A stretch of 64,000 nucleotides of DNA. It comes from Pleurocapsa sp. MO_226.B13 (GTDB taxonomy: Bacteria; Cyanobacteriota; Cyanobacteriia; Cyanobacteriales; Xenococcaceae). Shown piece after piece: positions 10,048 through 35,137 of this stretch. The translations under genes were made by a program, and so were the position numbers. Position 1 is the stretch's first letter. Each line of letters starts with the position of its first letter. The notes beneath the pieces are model-generated. The model made no database searches and was not told where the DNA came from. It was given only the letters and a program-made list of their open reading frames with translations. The DNA lies in assembly GCA_030064795.1 (NCBI GenBank), contig JASJEI010000002.1:1-64000 (forward strand). The letters are read 5' to 3'.

Positions 10048-11340
10048 GTGGCTTTCAAAATTGGTTTATTAGGATACGGTACAGTTGGCACGGGTACGGC
10101 GGAAATTCTTCTCGATCCGTTGGGAAGAAATAATTTGCTGCGGGAAATTGAAATAGCAAAGGTAGGGGTACGATCGCTCGATAAACCGCGATCGCCAGAA
10201 CTACCAGTAGGAGTTTTGACTGCGGACTTAGAGGCAATTGTCAGCGATCCTGAAATTGATATTGTAGTGGAGTTATTAGGCGGATTAGAACCAGCGCGAT
10301 CGCTAATCCTCAAAGCTATAGCCAACGGTAAGCATATTGTGACGGCAAATAAGGCAGTAATTGCTCGTCATGGCGAAGAAATTTTTAATGCAGCTAATGG
10401 TGCGGGGGTATATGTCCTCTTAGAAGCAGCAGTAGGAGGAGGAATTCCCGTAATTAAACCTTTAAAACAGTCTTTAGGGGTAAATCGCATCCAGACTGTA
10501 ATTGGCATTGTTAACGGTACGACCAACTATATTCTGACCCAAATGACCGAAGAGGGAGCAGATTTTGCTGAAGTCTTAGCCGAAGCCCAAAAATTAGGCT
10601 ATGCTGAAGCCGATCCCACCGCCGATGTTGATGGTTATGATGCAGCCGACAAAATTGCTATTCTAGCTGCGATCGCTTTTGGGGGGAGAATTAAACGGGA
10701 AGATATTGCTTGTGAAGGTATCCGTCAGATTAATGCTACCGATATCAGCTACGCAGAAGATCTGGGTTTTGTGATTAAGTTATTGGCGATCGCTAAAGCC
10801 AATCAAGGCAATGACTCTCTTCAGGTAAGAGTCCATCCCACCCTCGTACCAAAAGACCACCCCTTAGCCAACGTTAATGATGTCTATAACGCTATTTTGG
10901 TCGAAGGTGAACCACTAGGACAGGTCATGTTTTTTGGCCCTGGTGCGGGTAAAGGGGCGACTGCTAGCGCGGTAGTTTCAGATATTGCTAATATCGTCGC
11001 TATTTTACAGACTAACGGTACTAACCAGAAGCTCGATCCTCTGTTGAGTTGTCCTCACGAACACTTTAGTGAATTGACTTCAATTGCCGAGATCGAGACT
11101 CGTTTTTACGCCCGTTTTCTCTGTCAGGATGTACCTGGGGTAATCGGTCATTTAGGTACTAGCTTTGGCGAGCATGAAGTTAGCTTAGAATCAGTAGTGC
11201 AAATTGGCTATCAAGATAGCTTAGCCGAAATTGTCGTTGTCACTCACGATGTGCGGGAAGGAAACTTTCGTCAAGCATTGGCAGAGATTAAAAATCTAGA
11301 TGCTATTGACAGCATTCCCAGTATTCTAAGAGTCTTGTAG
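10048..11340 (+). CDS. hom: Homoserine dehydrogenase
   Basis: Reduces aspartate-semialdehyde to homoserine with NAD(P)H, at the branch point to threonine, methionine and isoleucine. The 430-residue length is normal for the monofunctional enzyme. The N-terminal Rossmann motif is GLLGYGTVGTGTAEIL, then ELLGGLEPA and TANKAVIA. The catalytic region has GTTNYILTQM and GYAEADPTADVDGYDAADK (about residues 180-200). A C-terminal ACT domain (RFYARFLCQDVPGVIGHL) starts near residue 350. I chose the GTG start because MAFKIGLLG is the family N-terminus. The 3' end overlaps a convergent DUF5615 gene by 70 bases. A decayed fragment of the same gene lies at 18507-18590. Confidence 0.95.
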   Translation: MAFKIGLLGYGTVGTGTAEILLDPLGRNNLLREIEIAKVGVRSLDKPRSPELPVGVLTADLEAIVSDPEIDIVVELLGGLEPARSLILKAIANGKHIVTANKAVIARHGEEIFNAANGAGVYVLLEAAVGGGIPVIKPLKQSLGVNRIQTVIGIVNGTTNYILTQMTEEGADFAEVLAEAQKLGYAEADPTADVDGYDAADKIAILAAIAFGGRIKREDIACEGIRQINATDISYAEDLGFVIKLLAIAKANQGNDSLQVRVHPTLVPKDHPLANVNDVYNAILVEGEPLGQVMFFGPGAGKGATASAVVSDIANIVAILQTNGTNQKLDPLLSCPHEHFSELTSIAEIETRFYARFLCQDVPGVIGHLGTSFGEHEVSLESVVQIGYQDSLAEIVVVTHDVREGNFRQALAEIKNLDAIDSIPSILRVL

Positions 11341-11600
11341 TTAGTCGCGATCGCACTAATCGCTCGTTGAGTAGGTACAAAAGAGATCGCAGTTAGCGGA
11401 TGTCCGTAAACTAAACTGCGCTGATGAAAGTCAGAATCCTTAGAAACAATCACAAAATCATTCGTCTTTGCATACTCCCAAATAACGGCATCATCAGTAT
11501 TAGTCATTGCCAGGGTTTTGACGTGCTCAGAATCAGGATACAAATCTATAATCCTGTTAATAATTCGATCTGACAGGTTTTCGTCCAATAGCAGTTTCAC
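11271..11600 (-). CDS. DUF5615 PIN-like toxin, C-terminus replaced
   Basis: Predicted RNase-type toxin of the DUF5615 (Mut7-C-like PIN) family: MKLLLDENLS, then DAVIWEYAKTNDFVIVSKDSDFHQRS, the two acidic clusters expected of the family. Relatives continue after YGHP with a strand and a helix containing GNCST; here this is missing. From about residue 78 the frame runs on through HIP1-containing spacer into the antisense of the hom 3' end. The protein thus looks truncated with a new tail, and its activity is doubtful. Its start overlaps the stop of the DUF433 antitoxin by four bases (ATGA). Confidence 0.75.
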   Translation of the reverse strand: MKLLLDENLSDRIINRIIDLYPDSEHVKTLAMTNTDDAVIWEYAKTNDFVIVSKDSDFHQRSLVYGHPLTAISFVPTQRAISAIATNYKTLRILGMLSIASRFLISANA

Positions 11601-11821
11601 AACGATGCTACAAATAACTTTTTCTCACGATCGGTCGCAAAGGCAAGACAAGCCTTGATGTCTTCCAAAGTGAGTTCAGAAAAATCTTCTAGAATTTCTG
11701 CTTCGGTCATGCCACCTGCCAAATATTCTAATATGTCATACACTGTAATTCGCATCCCCCGAATACAGGGCTTGCCACTGCGTTTTCCAGGCTCAATTGT
11801 GATGATGTTTTGGTAGTCCAT
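11597..11821 (-). CDS. DUF433 antitoxin
   Basis: A 74-residue DUF433 protein with the typical ITIEPGKRSGKPCIRGMRITVYDILEYLAGG followed by LTLEDIKACLAFATDRE, a small helix-turn-helix-like fold. DUF433 genes commonly precede DUF5615 toxin genes and are taken as their antitoxins. Here the two overlap by four bases, as expected for translational coupling. With the toxin tail apparently lost, this may be a solitary antitoxin in practice. Confidence 0.85.
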   Translation of the reverse strand: MDYQNIITIEPGKRSGKPCIRGMRITVYDILEYLAGGMTEAEILEDFSELTLEDIKACLAFATDREKKLFVASL

Positions 11822-11874: not shown

Positions 11875-11950
11875 CGAGATCGCCCCTCAAAATCTCTGCA
11901 GTATCTTCGTGCCTTCCCAATTCCTGCCATATTTCCACTAGCCTGGTGTC
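11875..11950 (-). pseudogene. Fragment of carbamate kinase 3' end
   Basis: About 75 bases match the codons for the C-terminal MAGIGKLKDAAEILSGDL region of the arcC gene at 15703-16608 in the same orientation. Shared blocks include GGAATTGG, GCAGAGATTTT and GGGCGATCT, with a one-base shift in between, so it is not translatable. It ends next to the truncated PIN toxin. Two arcC 3' ends therefore bracket the integron region (about 12-15.7 kb). Confidence 0.65.
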
Positions 11951-11970: not shown

Positions 11971-12093
11971 CTATTCCTCTACAATAGCAGTCAATCTTAC
12001 CGTGTTCAATGCTTGTGCAGAAGCTACAATGAAGGGCTGACGTTGAGCCAGAACATCCAGCAATACATCACTATCAAACAATACTCGCTTCAA
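11971..12093 (-). pseudogene. Truncated PIN-domain (VapC-like) toxin
   Basis: Only the first 40 codons of a PIN toxin remain: TTG-start LKRVLFDSDVLLDVLAQRQP then FIVASAQALNTV, typical of a VapC N-terminus with its first acidic residues (FDSDVLLD). A TAG follows after about 40 codons, and the sequence then changes to the arcC fragment. The start overlaps the stop of the preceding antitoxin-like gene (TTGA). Without the other acidic residues it cannot be a nuclease. Confidence 0.75.
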
Positions 12094-12260
12094 CGGTATT
12101 TTTCCTCCAGATAATCAACGTAGGACTCTGTAGAATCTTCTGAGTCTAGCTGAATTACACCGATCGAGCTTTGAGTCCAAGGATCGAGGTCAATTACAGG
12201 CTGCCCGCTTGGCTTTGGAGAAATGGATGATAGGGTTTCTTGTTGAATTGAGGTCAACAC
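12090..12260 (-). CDS. Small antitoxin-like protein upstream of PIN remnant
   Basis: A 56-residue open frame with GTG start: TSIQQETL near the N-terminus, SGQPVIDLDPWTQSSIGVIQ, and the ending ESYVDYLEEKYR. Short acidic proteins with this DxEDSTESYVDYLEEKYR-like end are found in front of PIN toxin genes in cyanobacteria, from memory. The stop/start overlap with the PIN remnant supports pairing. No convincing ribosome binding site is visible and the N-terminus may be shortened. Confidence 0.55.
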   Translation of the reverse strand: MLTSIQQETLSSISPKPSGQPVIDLDPWTQSSIGVIQLDSEDSTESYVDYLEEKYR

Positions 12261-12284
12261 AGATTGGACTAAAAGCCAGCGATC

Positions 12285-12374
12285 GCACTAAGACCTTGAG
12301 CTCAGCGGTGCTAGACAAACAATCGAAAGAAGATGATAGTTTAGTCAAGCATCCGCTGCAGTGAACGGTTAGGT
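12285..12374 (-). other. Candidate degenerate attC site (third)
   Basis: Read leftwards it starts ACCTAACCGTTCA, followed by GCAGCGGATGCT, a loop, then AGCACCGCTGAGCTC and a decayed right end GGTCTTAGTGC in place of GTTRRRY. The arms GCAGCGGATGCT and AGCACCGCTG pair with a one-base bulge, as in attC sites with extrahelical bases. A minus-strand open frame ends with TAA inside its RYYYAAC box, as in cassette 1. The damaged right core lowers confidence. Confidence 0.45.
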
Positions 12375-12464
12375 TTGATGGCCCACTTGCAACAGCCAAA
12401 ACCATTGTGGAGATCGCAGGTTAGCACCTCCCAATTTCACCCACAAAACATAAGGACAGCAGAA

Positions 12465-12556
12465 ACCTAACGGAAAAACGCAGCGGCGGCAAATTGAACT
12501 TACCCTCTCAGCAGTGACTTTCAAGCATCGACTGCCATGACGTGATAAGCTTAGAC
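12465..12556 (-). other. Candidate degenerate attC site (second)
   Basis: The right-hand core, GTTAGGT at 12471-12465 (minus strand), is perfect and is preceded by GCCGCTGCG. The left-hand core would be GTCTAAG at 12556-12550, one base off RYYYAAC. CTAA, ACG and GGC recur at matching distances in the two arms, but pairing is otherwise weak. It would close the cassette carrying the acyltransferase gene. Confidence 0.4.
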
Positions 12557-12637
12557 GCATTTACATTGCACTTTGAAATCCTCAAACGCCTTATGGAGAA
12601 GGAATAGAATAGGTAACTTTAGTGCGTCTAAGCTTAT
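12545..12637. repeat. 15-bp perfect inverted repeat, 63-bp loop
   Basis: ATAAGCTTAGACGCA at 12545-12559 is repeated as its exact reverse complement at 12623-12637, just downstream of the acyltransferase gene. It could be the ends of a tiny insertion or part of an unusual attC. It is too widely spaced for an ordinary terminator. Confidence 0.8.
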
Positions 12638-12705
12638 GAGGGTTAAAATGCAGAAATGCCGTGACATTCTACCAATAGAACAACCTATGAGACCATAGAC
12701 TTTGC

Positions 12706-14046
12706 CTATAATAGCCATTTTAATTTTCCTACTAATTCTGGCATTACTTCTTTTTGATCACGATATCTGTGTATTCTTCGTAGATTATCATGTTGCATTA
12801 GATTCTTAGCCAATTTACTCGGCAGAAGAACAGAGTAAAACAGCCCATTATTTGAGAATCCCTCAGTAATGCTCGATAACCAGGGAAAAGGATAATCTCC
12901 AAAAGAGCTAAAGTAGAATGGCTTTGACTCTCCAAATATTATGTCGTAAGTACCAAAGTTGACCCAGCTAGTAACCAATAAAGTTCTTTTCAGAGGATCA
13001 ATACCTTTGCTGACGAACCTGTCAATTTTATTGATGCCACCTTTTTCTTCAATATACTTTTTTGTCGAAAAGAAATTCATGTGTAGTTGTTCGAAGTTGT
13101 CAACTGATGCTCTTAAGTCTTTTGCTAATTGAAAAGGCTTAACTCTCTGATTAACCGAAATATTTATACTTGAACCAAAGTTTCCTGAAATATTTTCTGG
13201 CAATTTCATTTTAGATCTATAATTAATAGCTATGGATAAAACTCTTTCCTTACTGTACTCATCCAGTTCCGATATGATGTTAAATAGATGTGCACACAAT
13301 ACATCGTTTCTAGATAAGTTTCTGTGGGCATTTTCTGAGAATTTTTGCTTCATATTATTTAATTCATTCTCAGAAAAATAGAATCGCAAGCTGGTTTTAT
13401 TTCGAGCCTGGAATAACATATAAAATGCCAGCTCAAACAATTCTCTTCCGTTCAGATATCTAACGGCGGGAGTATTATTGTTATTTTCTTCTAGGTTCTC
13501 TTGAAGATACTTATCTCTTTCTTTGGTAATCAGAGGTAAAATATATTCTTTTTTGTTTGCTGAATTTGACCAAGCTTTCATAAGTTGCATAAATGTATGC
13601 ATATCTCCAATAGAATGATGCCAGCAAATCCCCAGTGCCATCCCTCCGCAGGCAAAATAGGTAAGATTAATAGTCATTAAGGGGCTTTGGTTAGGTATTA
13701 CCTTTTTAGGATTGATGATATTGACAAGTCTTTCTTTCTTTATTCTGGGCAATTTTTCAAGAATCTGGTTTACCGTACAGTTCTCTCTCGCAACTGAGAA
13801 GAGTACTCCCTGGTTGTTACAATCTATGTACAAATTATTATTTGATTTTTTCAATATTCCTGCAAAAAATGGGAAATCACTCAAAACTTCCCTTAGTGAA
13901 TCAATTAATGCATTGCGATCAAAGCTTTCTCTGTAAAAAAATACAACAGGCACAGCAAGATTTCTAAGCAATTGATCTGTAATGGCACAAGTTATTACCT
14001 GTTGAATATGGTGATTAGCTTGAACAAGAAATGCTTCCGTTTTCAT
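12706..14046 (-). CDS. BAHD-type (HxxxD) acyltransferase in an integron cassette
   Basis: A 446-residue protein of the BAHD/Transferase superfamily, which moves acyl groups from acyl-CoA to hydroxyl or amino groups. The catalytic motif HHSIGD (His144-x-x-x-Asp148) sits in ALGICWHHSIGDMHTFMQ, at the usual place about a third of the way in. The second family motif DFGWG appears as the variant DIIFGESKPF near residues 368-377, within WVNFGTYDIIFGESKP. Also typical are the N-terminal LRNLAVPVVFFYRE and SLREVLSDFPFFAGIL. The acceptor is unknown; relatives acylate plant alkaloids and flavonoids or fungal toxins. The codons are AT-rich and contain no HIP1 site. It starts 59 bases after the preceding cassette boundary, reads away from intI, and has no partner genes. 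Confidence 0.85.
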   Translation of the reverse strand: MKTEAFLVQANHHIQQVITCAITDQLLRNLAVPVVFFYRESFDRNALIDSLREVLSDFPFFAGILKKSNNNLYIDCNNQGVLFSVARENCTVNQILEKLPRIKKERLVNIINPKKVIPNQSPLMTINLTYFACGGMALGICWHHSIGDMHTFMQLMKAWSNSANKKEYILPLITKERDKYLQENLEENNNNTPAVRYLNGRELFELAFYMLFQARNKTSLRFYFSENELNNMKQKFSENAHRNLSRNDVLCAHLFNIISELDEYSKERVLSIAINYRSKMKLPENISGNFGSSINISVNQRVKPFQLAKDLRASVDNFEQLHMNFFSTKKYIEEKGGINKIDRFVSKGIDPLKRTLLVTSWVNFGTYDIIFGESKPFYFSSFGDYPFPWLSSITEGFSNNGLFYSVLLPSKLAKNLMQHDNLRRIHRYRDQKEVMPELVGKLKWLL

Positions 14047-14104
14047 AAGTTTATAGTTTCTGGTTTATGCTTGTATGATTGGACTTAATTTTGAGCCTTG
14101 GAAT

Positions 14105-14174
14105 ACCTAACGACCAAGCTCAGCCGCGACGGGCCGCTACGCGGCACGGCGTCGGCTGCAGCGCCTTGTTAGGC
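14105..14174 (-). other. attC recombination site (first cassette)
   Basis: A 70-bp site, read leftwards: GCCTAAC (R box) - AAGGCGCTGCAGCCGACGCC (L side) - central loop with CGCGTAGCGG - GCGGCTGAGCTTGGTC - GTTAGGT (R' box). Both conserved cores are perfect (RYYYAAC and GTTRRRY) and the arms pair with short mismatched spacers, the hallmark of the 60-bp attC class. It is strikingly GC-rich against its surroundings. The stop codon of the 86-codon gene lies inside the R box. Confidence 0.92.
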
Positions 14175-14429
14175 ATCCGACTCCGTCTTCGGCCTGGTTT
14201 CGGTCTCGCTCGGACGACCGAAGCCAGGAGCTCTAACAACGAAAAACAAAGCAAAAAGGGTCCCCACGAGATACCAGAGATACTCCGTCGTCAACCTATC
14301 TGCTGTCTCAAATCCATACCCGAAACCAACAGCTACCCAGAGGATCTGAGCGGTCACCACCGCCAGGACCGCCGACGTCCAAGCGTTACGGCTCCATGAA
14401 GTCGACCGCCAGCTAAACACACTCATCAT
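14169..14429 (-). CDS. Cassette-encoded small membrane protein
   Basis: An 86-residue protein of unknown function with two hydrophobic helices (about residues 17-39, TSAVLAVVTAQILWVAVGF, and about 49-67, YLWYLVGTLFALFFVVRA) and a charged, Pro/Glu/Thr-rich tail. It starts with ATGATG, 29 bases after the attI-side core at 14458, and ends with TAA inside the attC R box; both are normal for integron cassettes. The base composition is much richer in G+C than that of the flanking genes, so a foreign origin is very likely. I do not recognise the family. Confidence 0.7.
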   Translation of the reverse strand: MMSVFSWRSTSWSRNAWTSAVLAVVTAQILWVAVGFGYGFETADRLTTEYLWYLVGTLFALFFVVRAPGFGRPSETETRPKTESDA

Positions 14430-14457
14430 CTCAACCAGGGTTGTTCGCGCACTAGAT

Positions 14458-14620
14458 GCCTAACTATATATTCAACCGCACCCTGTAGTCTAGCATTCAT
14501 ATAATGTTTAAATCATTGCATTTTGCAATCTAGTATTCATTATAAGCGACAAAAACCGCACTTTACTATCTAACAAACACATTTTGTTACTTTTACCGCA
14601 GTTTGCCATCTAGTAACGTC
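14458..14620. promoter_or_regulatory. attI-like region with four 40-bp direct repeats
   Basis: The insertion core GTTAGGC (minus strand) is at 14464-14458. Between it and intI four imperfect direct repeats follow at an exact 40-base period: GCA ends at 14480, 14520, 14560 and 14600, each followed by a YTTNNNATCTAGTA-like block. attI sites of known integrons carry direct repeats bound by the integrase, so these are candidate IntI binding sites. A related ATCTAGTG block lies inverted at the cassette edge. Confidence 0.7.
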
Positions 14621-14681
14621 AATCTGGGAATAATGAAAATGAGCAAACTTTACTTTTTCCATCAAAAAAGTTTTACTAAAT

Positions 14682-15656
14682 TTGCATATGAACAATCCAC
14701 AACAACCTCGCCTGCTAGAGCGAGTACGCAGCACATTGCGTCTCAAGCATATGAGTCTTAAGACCGAAAAGTCTTATCTATACTACATTAAGCAGTTTAT
14801 TCTGTTTCACCATAAACGTCACCCCAGAGAAATGGGAGTTGAGGAAATCAGAGCTTATCTTTCACATTTAGCAGTAGATAAAAATGTGGCTGCATCAACA
14901 CAAAACGTTGCTAGAAACGCACTATTGTTTTTATACAAAGAAGTTTTACAAATAGAATTACCTTTTATTGATGGAATTAAGCCAGCAAAACGTCCTAAAA
15001 GACTTCCTGTTGTTTTTACTCGTGAAGAGATACGTATTGTTTTAGCAAATTTGAGTGGTGTTCATCATTTAATGGCGAGCTTACTATATGGTTCGGGTTT
15101 ACGTTTAACAGAATGCTTAAATTTACGAGTTAAAGATATTGATTTTGGATATCAGCAAATCACAGTGCGCGATGGTAAAGGGAGCAAAGATCGTATAAAG
15201 ATGTTGCCACAATCAACTATTGAAGGGCTTAAACTGCAATTAGAAAATGCCAAATATTTACATCAACAGGATTTGGCTCAAGGATACGGTGCCGTCTATT
15301 TACCTTATGCTTTAGAGCGTAAATATCCTAATGCCAATCGAGAATGGGTATGGCAATTTGTCTTTGCTGCTAATAATCGCTCAAAAGATCCGCGTTCGGG
15401 TATTGTTCGCCGACATCATATTTATCCAGATTCGCTATAAAGAGCCGTTAAAAAGGCAATTCGCCAAACAGGAATTACTAAACGAGCAAGCTGTCATACT
15501 TTTCGTCACAGCTTTGCCACACATTTACGGTCGGATGGTTATGATATCCGCACGGTACAGGAACTATTGGGTCATAAAGATGTTTGTACTACAATGGTCT
15601 ATACCCATGTCTTGAATCGTGGTGGTAGAGGCGTGAGAAGTCCTCTCGATTCATGA
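14682..15656 (+). pseudogene. intI: Integron integrase, interrupted by one in-frame TAA
   Basis: A tyrosine recombinase of the integron-integrase family. The N-terminal part has [34 protein letters not shown]; box I is [15 protein letters not shown]. The IntI-specific extra domain is present as [21 protein letters not shown] followed by [12 protein letters not shown]. Codon 253 is TAA (15438-15440), where relatives have Gln (LQRAVK). Beyond it the same frame continues with [12 protein letters not shown], box [24 protein letters not shown], the catalytic [11 protein letters not shown] and a normal end RSPLDS. Without readthrough the 252-residue product lacks HxxR and the Tyr nucleophile. This is the only lesion seen. 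It reads away from the cassettes. Confidence 0.92.
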
Positions 15657-15702
15657 AGATCGGGCGTTAACTCTGACATAAAGTTAAAAACAAAAGCGAT
15701 CG

Positions 15703-16608
15703 CTATTTTACTCTTATAATTGTCCCAAGATCGCCCGATAAAATCTCTGCTGCATCTTTTAACTTGCCAATTCCCGCCATACCGCCAGTAGTCTCAACAA
15801 AACGACAAGCTGCTTCTACCTTTGGTTGCATTGAACCAGGAGCAAAGCTATAGTTGCGTAACTGCTGAGGAGTAGTCCCGTATATTGGTTGTGCTTCTGG
15901 AGTATCCCAGTTAGTGTAAACCGCATCTACATCAGTCAATAAAAGTAAAGCATCAGCTTGTAACTCTGTTGCCAGTAATGCTGTGGCTAAATCTTTATCG
16001 ATAACTGCTTCAATCCCACGAATACTGCCTGCGGGGGTAACTACAACGGGTATGCCACCACCGCCAGCACAGACGACTAAGGCTCCCACTTTTACCAGTA
16101 ACCGAATTGTGGTCAATTCTAAGATTCTCTTAGGTTCGGGAGAGGGAACGACGCGACGATAGACATTGCCATCGGCAGCAATTGCCCAACCTCTTGCTTG
16201 GGCTAGCTGTTTAGCTTCTATTTCTGAATAAACCGCACCGATAGGTTTAGTAGGACGAGCAAAAGCAGGATCGTGGGGGTCTACTTCGATCTGGGTGAGG
16301 AGAGTAACTATTTGCTGTTCTGGTAGTTGATTGCAGAGTTCTTGTTCGATTAGATAACCGATCGCTCCTTCTGTCTCTGCGTCTAAAATATCTAGGGGAT
16401 AGGGTTTAACTCCTTTGTAAGCTTCGGCTTGCATAGCCAGCAGTCCTACCTGGGGTCCATTACCGTGGGTGACTACCACCTGATGTTCTCTAGCAACAAG
16501 GGCGATCGCTTTGGCTGCCAAGCGAATATTTTGTCGCTGGATTTCTACTTCTGGAGGTTGACCGCGCCTAACTAGGGCATTACCGCCCAAGGCAATAACT
16601 ACGAGCAT
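15703..16608 (-). CDS. arcC: Carbamate kinase
   Basis: Interconverts carbamoyl phosphate + ADP with carbamate + ATP. The 301 residues show the whole amino-acid-kinase fold: MLVVIALGGNALVRRG, VVTHGNGPQVGLL, CAGGGGIPVV, VIDKDLATALLA, LLLLTDVDAVYTNW, GSMQPKVEAACRFVE, and a standard C-terminus. It starts six bases after the cyclic-DPG-synthetase-like gene and is surely in one operon with it. No arginine deiminase or ornithine carbamoyltransferase is in the window, so whether it degrades carbamoyl phosphate from arginine, agmatine or purines is open. A decayed copy of its 3' end is at 11875-11950. Confidence 0.95.
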   Translation of the reverse strand: MLVVIALGGNALVRRGQPPEVEIQRQNIRLAAKAIALVAREHQVVVTHGNGPQVGLLAMQAEAYKGVKPYPLDILDAETEGAIGYLIEQELCNQLPEQQIVTLLTQIEVDPHDPAFARPTKPIGAVYSEIEAKQLAQARGWAIAADGNVYRRVVPSPEPKRILELTTIRLLVKVGALVVCAGGGGIPVVVTPAGSIRGIEAVIDKDLATALLATELQADALLLLTDVDAVYTNWDTPEAQPIYGTTPQQLRNYSFAPGSMQPKVEAACRFVETTGGMAGIGKLKDAAEILSGDLGTIIRVK

Positions 16609-16614
16609 AATTAT

Positions 16615-17964
16615 CTATCCTCCCAAATTTTTACGGACAAGAAACTGCTCTATTTGAGCCGATAAACTCGGTTTACCCACCTCAGCAAATTCATAGCGGG
16701 CGCGTACTACTGGCTTGTTAAGTTGCATCAGAGAACTCAGATCGCTAGGAGTAGCTGCCACAACTACGTCGGCTTCGGCGTTGTTAATTGTTGTTTCTAG
16801 TGCTTTGAGTTGAGCGGGGAAATACCCCATAGCTGGTAATATTGAGCCAATGTGGGGATAGCGGACATAAACTTCGGCAATTTCAGGAACAGCATAAGCC
16901 CTGGGATCGACGATCGCTGCTGCCTGGGCGCGGGTAGTAGCTACATAGCCGGCACCATAAGGCATTCCTCCATGAGTGGTAGTAGGACCATCCTCTACTA
17001 CTAATATATGGCGATCGCGTATTGCTTCGGGATTGTCTAATTTGATGGGTGAAGCACCACGAACAATAACTGCTGTCGGATTAACCCTCTTGACTGTCTC
17101 GCTAACTCTTTGTACATCAGCATCAGCAGCCGAATCGACTTTGGCAATAATTACAATGTCTGCCATCCGCAATACTACTTCTCCTGGGTGGTGAGTAGTT
17201 TCATCTCCAGGACGCAAGGGATCGACTAAGACCAGATGTAAATCGGGTTTAATGAAGGGAAAGTCATTGTTACCGCCGTCCCAGAGGATAATATCTGCTT
17301 CTTGTTCGGCTTTCTGGACAATTAATCCATAATCGACTCCAGCATAGACTATGTTGCCCACCTCTAAATGGGGTTCGTATTCTTCCCTTTCCTCAATTGT
17401 GCATTCAGCTATATCTAAATCGGCTTTGGTGGCAAACCTTTGCACAGCTTGCTTTTCTAAATCTCCGTAAGGCATGGGATGACGGATAACAGCTACCTGC
17501 AAACCTTTTTGTCGCAGTAGTTTAGAAAGCCAACGGGTAGTTTGAGACTTACCACAACCAGTCCGTACCGCAGAAACAGCGATTACGGGGACTTTTGCTG
17601 ACAGCATGGTTCGTTCGGGACCCAAAAATAAGAAATCTGCACCCGCTACCATTGCCCGCGATGCTAAATGCATCACTTCAGCATGAGTCAAATCGCTATA
17701 AGCAAATACAACACAATCTATTTGCTCTCGACGACAAAGAGATTCCAATTCTGTTTCGTCAACGACAGGAATACCTTCAGGATAAAGAGAACCTGCAAGA
17801 CTGGGTGGATAGCGACGATTAGCAATACCAGAAATTTGTGCTGCGGTAAATGCCACTACTTCCGCTTCTGGATTATGGCGGTATACTCGATTAAAATTAT
17901 GAAAATCGCGACCTGCTGCCCCCATAATGACAATTCTCGTAGGAGATCGCTTTTGACCGTCCAT
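16615..17964 (-). CDS. Cyclic 2,3-diphosphoglycerate synthetase-like GTPase/ATPase
   Basis: A 449-residue protein with an N-terminal Rossmann segment (IVIMGAAGRDFHNFN), then a P-loop-like AVSAVRTGCGKSQTTRWL (about residues 130-147), VIRHPMPYGDLEKQAVQRF, DIILWDGGNNDFPF and the C-terminal EDGPTTTHGGMPYGAGYVA. This is the family named after archaeal cyclic 2,3-diphosphoglycerate synthetase. In bacteria it often accompanies carbamate kinase and carbamoyltransferase genes, where its true reaction is uncertain. First gene of the two-gene unit with arcC. Confidence 0.85.
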   Translation of the reverse strand: MDGQKRSPTRIVIMGAAGRDFHNFNRVYRHNPEAEVVAFTAAQISGIANRRYPPSLAGSLYPEGIPVVDETELESLCRREQIDCVVFAYSDLTHAEVMHLASRAMVAGADFLFLGPERTMLSAKVPVIAVSAVRTGCGKSQTTRWLSKLLRQKGLQVAVIRHPMPYGDLEKQAVQRFATKADLDIAECTIEEREEYEPHLEVGNIVYAGVDYGLIVQKAEQEADIILWDGGNNDFPFIKPDLHLVLVDPLRPGDETTHHPGEVVLRMADIVIIAKVDSAADADVQRVSETVKRVNPTAVIVRGASPIKLDNPEAIRDRHILVVEDGPTTTHGGMPYGAGYVATTRAQAAAIVDPRAYAVPEIAEVYVRYPHIGSILPAMGYFPAQLKALETTINNAEADVVVAATPSDLSSLMQLNKPVVRARYEFAEVGKPSLSAQIEQFLVRKNLGG

Positions 17965-18094
17965 TAAAATACTCCTTTATTCGATAATTAGATTGAGAAA
18001 GGATCGAGAAAAATGAGCCTATCTAACCGCCTTATTTATAAAAAAGTATCTTGAAGAACTTGTGAGGAAAGTAGTAAATTGAAGCTTTTATCGC

Positions 18095-27131: not shown

Positions 27132-27154
27132 TTAAATACGGACAGCGTAAAATG

Positions 27155-27604
27155 GAGAGAGTTGGAACGTAAGCCGGATTCTGTTCTCAACCTTAATTAA
27201 CTGGTGTTTGACACAATTAATTTTGCTTGAGGGTAGTTATCTATCTGGGATGTTTGTTACCAAACACCTCCTGCGGTTCTCCAAATTCGGGACTGGAAAA
27301 AGACCAACCATAGTCCCTCCGACCTTGCTCCCTACCGGGGTTTACCGAGCCAGTATCTCTCGATACTGCTGGTGCGCTCTTACCGCACCTTTGCACCCTT
27401 ACCAACCGTAGGGGCGGTTCGCGATGCGGAGCGAGTCCTTTAGGGCGAACCGACCCTACATTTTTAAATTGGCGGTATTTTTCTGTGGCACTCTCCTCGC
27501 GATCGCTCGCACTGGGAATTATCCAGCAAGTCTGGTCTTTCGGGAGTCCGGACTTTCCTCAGATCTGCCTCTAGGACAGATCTGCAACTACCTCGCCAAC
27601 TCTC
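27155..27604 (-). ncRNA. rnpB: RNase P RNA
   Basis: The catalytic RNA that matures tRNA 5' ends. On the minus strand it begins GAGAGTTGGCGAGGTAGTTG and shows the conserved GAGGAAAGTCCGGACTCCC, then GGTAAGGGTGCAAAGGTGCG with GGTAAGAGCGCACCAGCAG, and AAACCCCGGTAGGGAGCAAG. It closes with CAGAATCCGGCTTACGTTCC. The P12 stem-loop between CACAGAAAAATACCGCC and GGTAAGGGTG carries a dispersed palindrome (27408-27459). The ends are estimated from pairing and could be off by some bases. Confidence 0.95.
27408..27459. repeat. Palindromic insert in the P12 region of rnpB
   Basis: A 52-bp inverted repeat with arms GTAGGGGCGGTTCGC and GCGAACCGACCCTAC. The inner part GCGATGCGGAGCGAGTCC is unrelated to the RNase P consensus. 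It would form an extended hairpin on top of P12. Confidence 0.8.
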
Positions 27605-33462: not shown

Positions 33463-34946
<1,484 letters not shown>

Positions 34947-35137
34947 ATGGGAATTCTACCATTATTTAAGCTTTCAGCGTACTATTGCCAGGGGAAATAA
35001 TTATTTCTTTATCTATCTACCAAAACCTTCAAATTTAAAAATTTCTACAATTTAAGTTAAGTAAGAACAAACTACTAGTTGTTTTTGAATTACGATAAAT
35101 TACATTTAAAATTCTGGAGCAAGACAGAGCAGAGGAG

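Follow-up and report, generated by a model that had tools for sequence, protein, structure and literature searches.

Integrons have been studied mostly in proteobacteria, and in attI1, the best-known attI and the cassette insertion site of class 1 integrons, the direct repeats are spaced by about 20 bp. In the accessible text of two papers, attI1 is described as an insertion site with two extra direct repeats (DR1 and DR2), Vibrio attIA as having none, and accessory domains as occurring in some attIs (PMC8946536, PMC4792948). Integrons in cyanobacteria are already in print, judging by the parts of the reports open to view (PMC2426708, published in 2008 and citing an earlier survey; PMC8618304; PMC9668308), and the available text of PMC8352920 (2021) presents a cyanobacterial attC model. 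The nearest counterparts of the locus described here are found in Pleurocapsa sp. PCC 7327 (genome G631), whose two copies (L162 and L163) are sedentary chromosomal integrons, and in Pleurocapsales cyanobacterium LEGE 06147 (G397; locus L137). The locus itself lies in a stretch of 64,000 nucleotides from Pleurocapsa sp. MO_226.B13 (contig JASJEI010000002.1, positions 1 to 64,000), hereafter the window, as a 3.4-kb element between a vapB-like gene (12090-12286, minus strand) and a carbamate kinase gene (15703-16608, minus strand). The integrase gene intI runs rightward at 14688-15656, and attI and the cassette array occupy all the DNA leftward to 12287. This element is very probably a small chromosomal integron of the sedentary type, belonging to a native cyanobacterial lineage and by now in decay. 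By its sequence the integron is real and probably frozen, of a kind already known in cyanobacteria, and it is the architecture of its attI that appears to be a new variant.

The integrase gene and the attC sites

When read through a single in-frame stop, intI (plus strand) matches the integron integrase family TIGR02249 of NCBIfam with 460.1 bits (cut-off 265), whereas it misses the cut-offs of both XerC (141.5 bits; cut-off 335.15) and XerD (130 bits; cut-off 329.6). The stretch specific to IntI is present, as a first-pass annotation of this DNA had held, and residues 10-321 align with the solved integron integrase 2a3v. Together with the placement in the integrase tree given below, the family scores identify the protein as IntI and not as XerC or XerD.

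Covariance models were used for the attC sites. Of 51 different attC candidates gathered in other genomes from the DNA upstream of intI, 10 were discarded as poor, and model R1 was built from 35 of the remaining 41, none of them from the window. R1 gave 95 matches with an expectation value (E) of at most 1 in 43 cyanobacterial loci, training sites and near-duplicate loci included. A cyanobacterial model, R2, was built from 48 of 75 R1 matches and is not independent of R1, as its training sites were found with it. The site next to attI, attC1 (14105-14174, minus strand, 70 nt), is complete, with R'', L'', L' and R' boxes and a bottom-strand fold; it scores 55.9 bits with R1 (E 5.2e-13 in 64 kb) and 45.9 bits with R2. 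Its bottom strand, which is plus in the window, forms a better fold than chance predicts (z -4.36, matched by 0 of 200 shuffles), and its other strand folds less well (z -1.95, matched by 11 of 200). The acceptance of this site by a covariance model confirms the integron reading of the first-pass annotation. That an Xer-type recombinase merely stands beside a chance hairpin has next to no probability: tyrosine-recombinase domains are common to both families, but the reading is refuted by the XerC and XerD scores, far under their cut-offs, and by the attC match, and the attI and array order match those of other cyanobacterial integrons.

With default filters and E up to 10, the hits of R2 in the window number only three; each lies on the minus strand, and the two besides attC1 are eroded. 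The attC of cassette 2 (12465-12550, 86 nt) has an intact R' box and an eroded R'' side, and scores 22.1 bits with R2 (E 0.0037) and E 0.55 with R1. The attC of cassette 3 (approximately 12287-12374, 88 nt) has retained its stem while its R' box is degraded; R2 gives it 19.0 bits (E 0.024) on 12296-12363, and its fold has a z of -3.14. Both have about the length of cyanobacterial attCs and share the strand of attC1. In controls, R2 found no attC at E up to 1 in seven relatives' loci without a DNA match to the intI of the window (L131-L136 and L111); L121-L123 overlap other scanned loci and were not counted as further controls. No attC was found at the same threshold in L138, L139 and L140, each of which has an intI match, so not every integrase adjoins an array. 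Three cassettes can be shown for the array of the window, two of the attCs being weak: one with an 86-amino-acid open reading frame (ORF) of membrane type, one with a BAHD-like acyltransferase, and one without an ORF. Against this count it must be weighed that both eroded sites are weak with the general model R1 (11.4 bits for cassette 2 and, with filters off, 11.2 bits for cassette 3), and that the attC at 12465-12550 folds no better than shuffles (z +1.05).

A palindrome of 93 bp with perfect 15-bp arms is located at 12545-12637, between the acyltransferase gene of cassette 2 and its eroded attC, whose R'' side it touches. No second copy was found in the window or in the relatives' loci compared. 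It may represent a small insertion responsible for the damage to the attC.

The in-frame stop of intI is codon 251 (15438-15440), so that the frame is indeed broken, as implied where the first-pass annotation spoke of a repaired IntI. At position 251 one identical residue is found throughout 26 aligned relatives, and the conserved H270, R273, H296 and Y305, which we take to be the catalytic residues, all lie downstream. The product should be inactive because the stop precedes these residues; this copy does not encode a functional integrase as read, and the stop therefore points to a decaying integron, barring sequencing error. As the two distal attCs are eroded as well, the array has most likely become fixed, save for any action in trans by another integrase. 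The two integrase frames of PCC 7327 (88% identical to the window's) and that of LEGE 06147 (79% identical) are open, unlike the interrupted one of the window. Stops were found in 5 of 49 integrase rows tested, L002 and L094 representing one site, and only that of the window is at codon 251. An integrase 89% identical to the window's (P0087) likewise ends at residue 250, but its contig may simply end there, and a shared stop was rejected.

The stop could be a sequencing error, as a single genome reading is concerned, and this weighs against decay. It is unlikely, though, that the integrase is expressed whole, through such an error or through readthrough of the stop, and that the integron is active. 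Before and after this single stop the frame is uninterrupted as far as its ends, its remainder is conserved, and intact relatives exist, the closest being 96% identical (P0002); the distal attCs, however, are eroded as well, and other cyanobacterial intI copies also hold stops, at other codons.

The attI site and its phased repeats

The insertion box GTTAGGC is located at 14458-14464 on the minus strand and is followed, as read on the plus strand, by the stretch TAACTATATATTCA, whose conservation is seen when eight other cyanobacterial loci (two from one genome) are aligned with the window. A GTTRRRY insertion box adjoining intI, the mark of an attI, is present at this place as the putative recombination site. 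Four 20-bp repeats (14476-14615) stand between the insertion point and intI, starting at 14476, 14516, 14556 and 14596 and spaced by exactly 40 bp. They correspond to the attI-type direct repeats of the first-pass annotation, to which the exact spacing and the two eroded attCs are additions. Measured against a consensus set by eye, with a maximum of 19, the copies reach 16, 16 and 18 except for that at 14476, which reaches 13; the best other place on the plus strand scores 14. Self-match of the window's region at lags 40-42 has a shuffle p of 0.0005. The attI stretch and repeats of PCC 7327 are as in the window, and its attCs lie on the strand opposite to intI in 3 of 3 cases in L162 and 1 of 2 in L163; LEGE 06147 has a 41-bp phased attI of the same layout and attCs of cyanobacterial type.

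The phase was tested in the 240 nt that precede intI, in 107 different regions for which 230 nt or more of upstream sequence was available, by self-match at lags 40-42 (p<0.01, 2,000 shuffles per region). The cyanobacterial loci are for the most part those with the best scores rather than a random sample, and related rows do not count as independent. A phase of 40-42 bp was found in 31 of the 42 cyanobacterial regions (the window included) as against 2 of 65 from other phyla, one of the latter being a Chloroflexota row that adjoins a cyanobacterial clade in the tree. At control lags the counts were 0 (30-32), 1 (52-54) and 3 (20-22) of the 42 cyanobacterial regions, and 1, 0 and 3 of the 65 others, respectively. 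The phase occurs in both main clades of cyanobacterial integrases, with 14 of 17 tested in clade A (18 rows) and 16 of 23 in clade B (28 rows), and peaks at 42 and 84 in clade A and at 40 and 80 in clade B. A separate unit search placed 26 of the 42 cyanobacterial regions, and 1 of the 65 others, above all 60 shuffles; with the window left out of the search, the best period was 39-43 bp in 30 of 42. Inverted boxes alternate about 21 bp apart in several of the 16 loci displayed, for example L095, L128 and L023. Dyads number 1.95 per cyanobacterial locus against 0.53 in shuffles, and core boxes 1.21 against 0.54.

We read these repeats as a putative phased array of integrase boxes. Judged by the anatomy of the locus and by what is established for integrons, the attI adjoining intI would be bound by an intact IntI, which would recombine it, at the G/TT point of the box 14458-14464, with the folded single-stranded attC of a circular cassette. 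Cassettes would stack leftward, all read away from intI, and this copy has taken in at least three of them, to go by its three attC sites, two of which are weak. The boxes would lie on one face of the helix, where IntI may assemble cooperatively, favour insertion and repress its own gene. The scales seem evenly poised on the wider proposal that cyanobacterial integrons would have an attI kind of their own, in which at least four integrase boxes, often inverted in pairs, recur every 40-42 bp, approximately four turns of the helix, over the DNA that separates the insertion point from intI; a helically aligned IntI multimer would drive cassette insertion and shut its own gene off, and the sequence of the boxes would vary with the integrase of each clade, their spacing staying constant.

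Several observations count against the interpretation of the integron and its attI preferred here. Recombination and binding at this locus are predictions from sequence. The phase is absent at p<0.01 in 11 of the 42 cyanobacterial regions, and a best period of 39-43 bp was also returned, mostly with low scores, by 10 of 65 regions from other phyla and 4 of 60 shuffles. The inverted-box pattern is weak in the repeats of the window itself, and in other phyla dyads (1.32 against 0.48 in shuffles) and core boxes (0.86 against 0.46) are enriched too, though less so. Furthermore, a scan for the cassette promoter Pc gave one promoter-like site (14492-14463, minus strand) against 1.1 expected by chance, so that none stands above chance level.

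The phased repeats might instead be operator sites through which a host transcription regulator controls intI, a reading that we regard as doubtful but worth keeping in mind. They sit in the stretch that separates the insertion point from the intI start, in which the intI promoter would be expected, although the promoter scan found no promoter-like site on the plus strand, and many of them are dyads, like repressor sites. However, the repeat sequence is alike within a locus and different between integrase clades, as would be expected if the binding protein is encoded alongside, and many repeat units have GTTA-type ends resembling the recombination box; the near absence of the phase from other phyla (2 of 65) likewise speaks against this reading. 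With four units at 40 bp over about 140 bp, the attI of the window differs from attI1, which has two repeats within about 65 bp according to the part of PMC4792948 consulted, and the same difference separates from attI1 the cyanobacterial attIs with at least four units at 40-42 bp. No account of an attI phased at 40-42 bp was found in the open-access literature, in those portions that could be searched, subscription literature being mostly outside this scope.

Kinship and origin of the integron

An integron integrase above the cut-off was found in 122 of 388 genomes of the class, so that an integron is less of a peculiarity in a cyanobacterium than the first-pass annotation had taken it to be. 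In the nearest family, 5 of 27 genomes have an intI match (E<=1e-90). A tree of 122 integrase rows, built with a quick method without bootstrap and with four outgroup rows on very long branches, joins the window to PCC 7327 and then to LEGE 06147, the clade being made up of the window and 17 cyanobacterial rows (SH-aLRT 97). The cyanobacterial integrases in this tree form two main groups, with one row (L120) apart. Since the integrase is nested among cyanobacterial rows, entry of the platform from another phylum is unsupported, and the earlier view that the integron arrived by transfer is not borne out, its attI also resembling that of PCC 7327. Transfer between cyanobacteria may have occurred. 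A plasmid of the cyanobacterium Kovacikia minuta carries a 59% identical integron integrase (NZ_CP083584.1, 32027-32983), and such a plasmid is a possible vehicle between cyanobacteria.

Two compositional signs of transfer had been put forward. The stretch of 3.4 kb without HIP1 sites was rejected as such a sign: the window contains 72 sites in 64 kb, and a gap of at least 3.4 kb arises in 82% of random placements (P 0.82). The high GC content of cassette 1, about 58% as compared with 41% for the window, does fit a foreign cassette, of the sort that integrons collect. A non-cyanobacterial donor of the whole integron is very improbable. Besides the GC-rich cassette, the patchy presence in the nearest family and the different 2.2-kb stretch that the relative G391 carries at the same place would agree with it; opposed to these are the nesting of the integrase within cyanobacteria, the attI common to the window, PCC 7327 and LEGE 06147, the GC content of intI (39%), close to that of the window, and the HIP1 gap expected by chance.

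The right flank (15703-18000) is matched in 6 of the 27 nearest-family genomes with 84-90% identity (E<=1e-150), and the surrounding window is, by such sequence comparison, cyanobacterial. On the other side of the balance, in four of these six genomes no match to the integrase reached E<=1e-90, and the other two (G407 and G414) hold more distant integrases at other places. The 94% identity with G391 starts again at 12286 on the left and the identity with G394 at 15673 on the right, so the limits of 12285-15656 proposed earlier are right within about 20 bases. No simple empty site was found in the comparison of flanks with relatives, G391 included. With other genes in G391 between the same two flanks, the interval from carbamate kinase to vapB varies in content.

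Cassettes, neighbouring features and significance

The cassette ORFs and the three attC sites are on the minus strand, opposite to intI, and lead leftward away from attI, in agreement with the divergent layout described in the first-pass annotation. Cassette 1 extends over 353 bp (14111-14463), from the attI crossover point to that of attC1. Its ORF of 86 amino acids (14169-14429) is membrane-protein-like by eye, belongs to no family, and has its stop inside attC1. A protein search returned a single protein, identical to the window's, on a contig of 1,019 bp. Cassette 3 (12287-12470) has no ORF of note and ends at the left edge of the element.

Cassette 2 extends between its crossover boxes over about 1640 bp (12471-14110) with 35% GC, and its ORF of 446 amino acids (12706-14046) encodes a BAHD-like acyltransferase that scores 134.4 bits against PF02458 (cut-off 22.7). 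HXXXD and DFGWG are the motifs of BAHD acyltransferases; the former is present as HSIGD, and the latter is degenerate, DIIFGESKP standing in its place. The family score and HXXXD are shared with the solved plant-type hydroxycinnamoyl transferases (BAHD, PF02458), from which the gene of the window differs in its degenerate DFGWG and in being carried in an integron cassette. Among 5.8 billion proteins 133 matches were obtained, itself included, and the organisms named among the matches listed are cyanobacterial. Matches at E<=1e-30 occur in 2 of the 388 cyanobacterial genomes and in 1 of 368 genomes of the order, which is one of the same two, and none was found in a scan of viral contigs. A family dwelling in cassettes was considered and is not supported, as R2 found no attC at E<=5 in three homologous loci (one in G274, two in G229); these were viewed over 12-14 kb, the gene of G274 lying 334 bases from the contig end with one side barely visible. 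In the open-access literature, as far as its text could be consulted, nothing evidently related to an integron with a BAHD gene was found.

The vapB-like gene, a label assigned by eye with no Pfam match above cut-off, is without its first codons in the window, where the integron ends beside the last attC; the missing start was not seen at the other edge of the element. In G391 the vapB-like gene has its start (L132, 4661-4831), and the DNA between the flanks there (L132, 2466-4334) holds a pentapeptide-repeat gene and a further ORF of 112 amino acids. A 67-bp piece at 11878-11944, 3.8 kb away from the carbamate kinase gene and oriented like it, resembles the 3' end of that gene. It is adjoined by a vapC-like reading with a frame change by eye. 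A toxin-antitoxin-like pair of DUF5615 and DUF433 (11271-11821, minus strand) is found near the vapB-like remnant. Elsewhere in the window are a ribonuclease P RNA (27154-27603) and a thiamine pyrophosphate (TPP) riboswitch (34853-34950), both on the minus strand.

The acyltransferase cassette suggests that integrons can carry genes for the acylation of small molecules, in this case from a family present in only two of the genomes sampled. If about one third of cyanobacterial species have integrons, as the sampled class indicates, and many of these contain a long attI with helical phasing, then recognition by the integrase, the control of intI and the insertion of cassettes may differ throughout the phylum.

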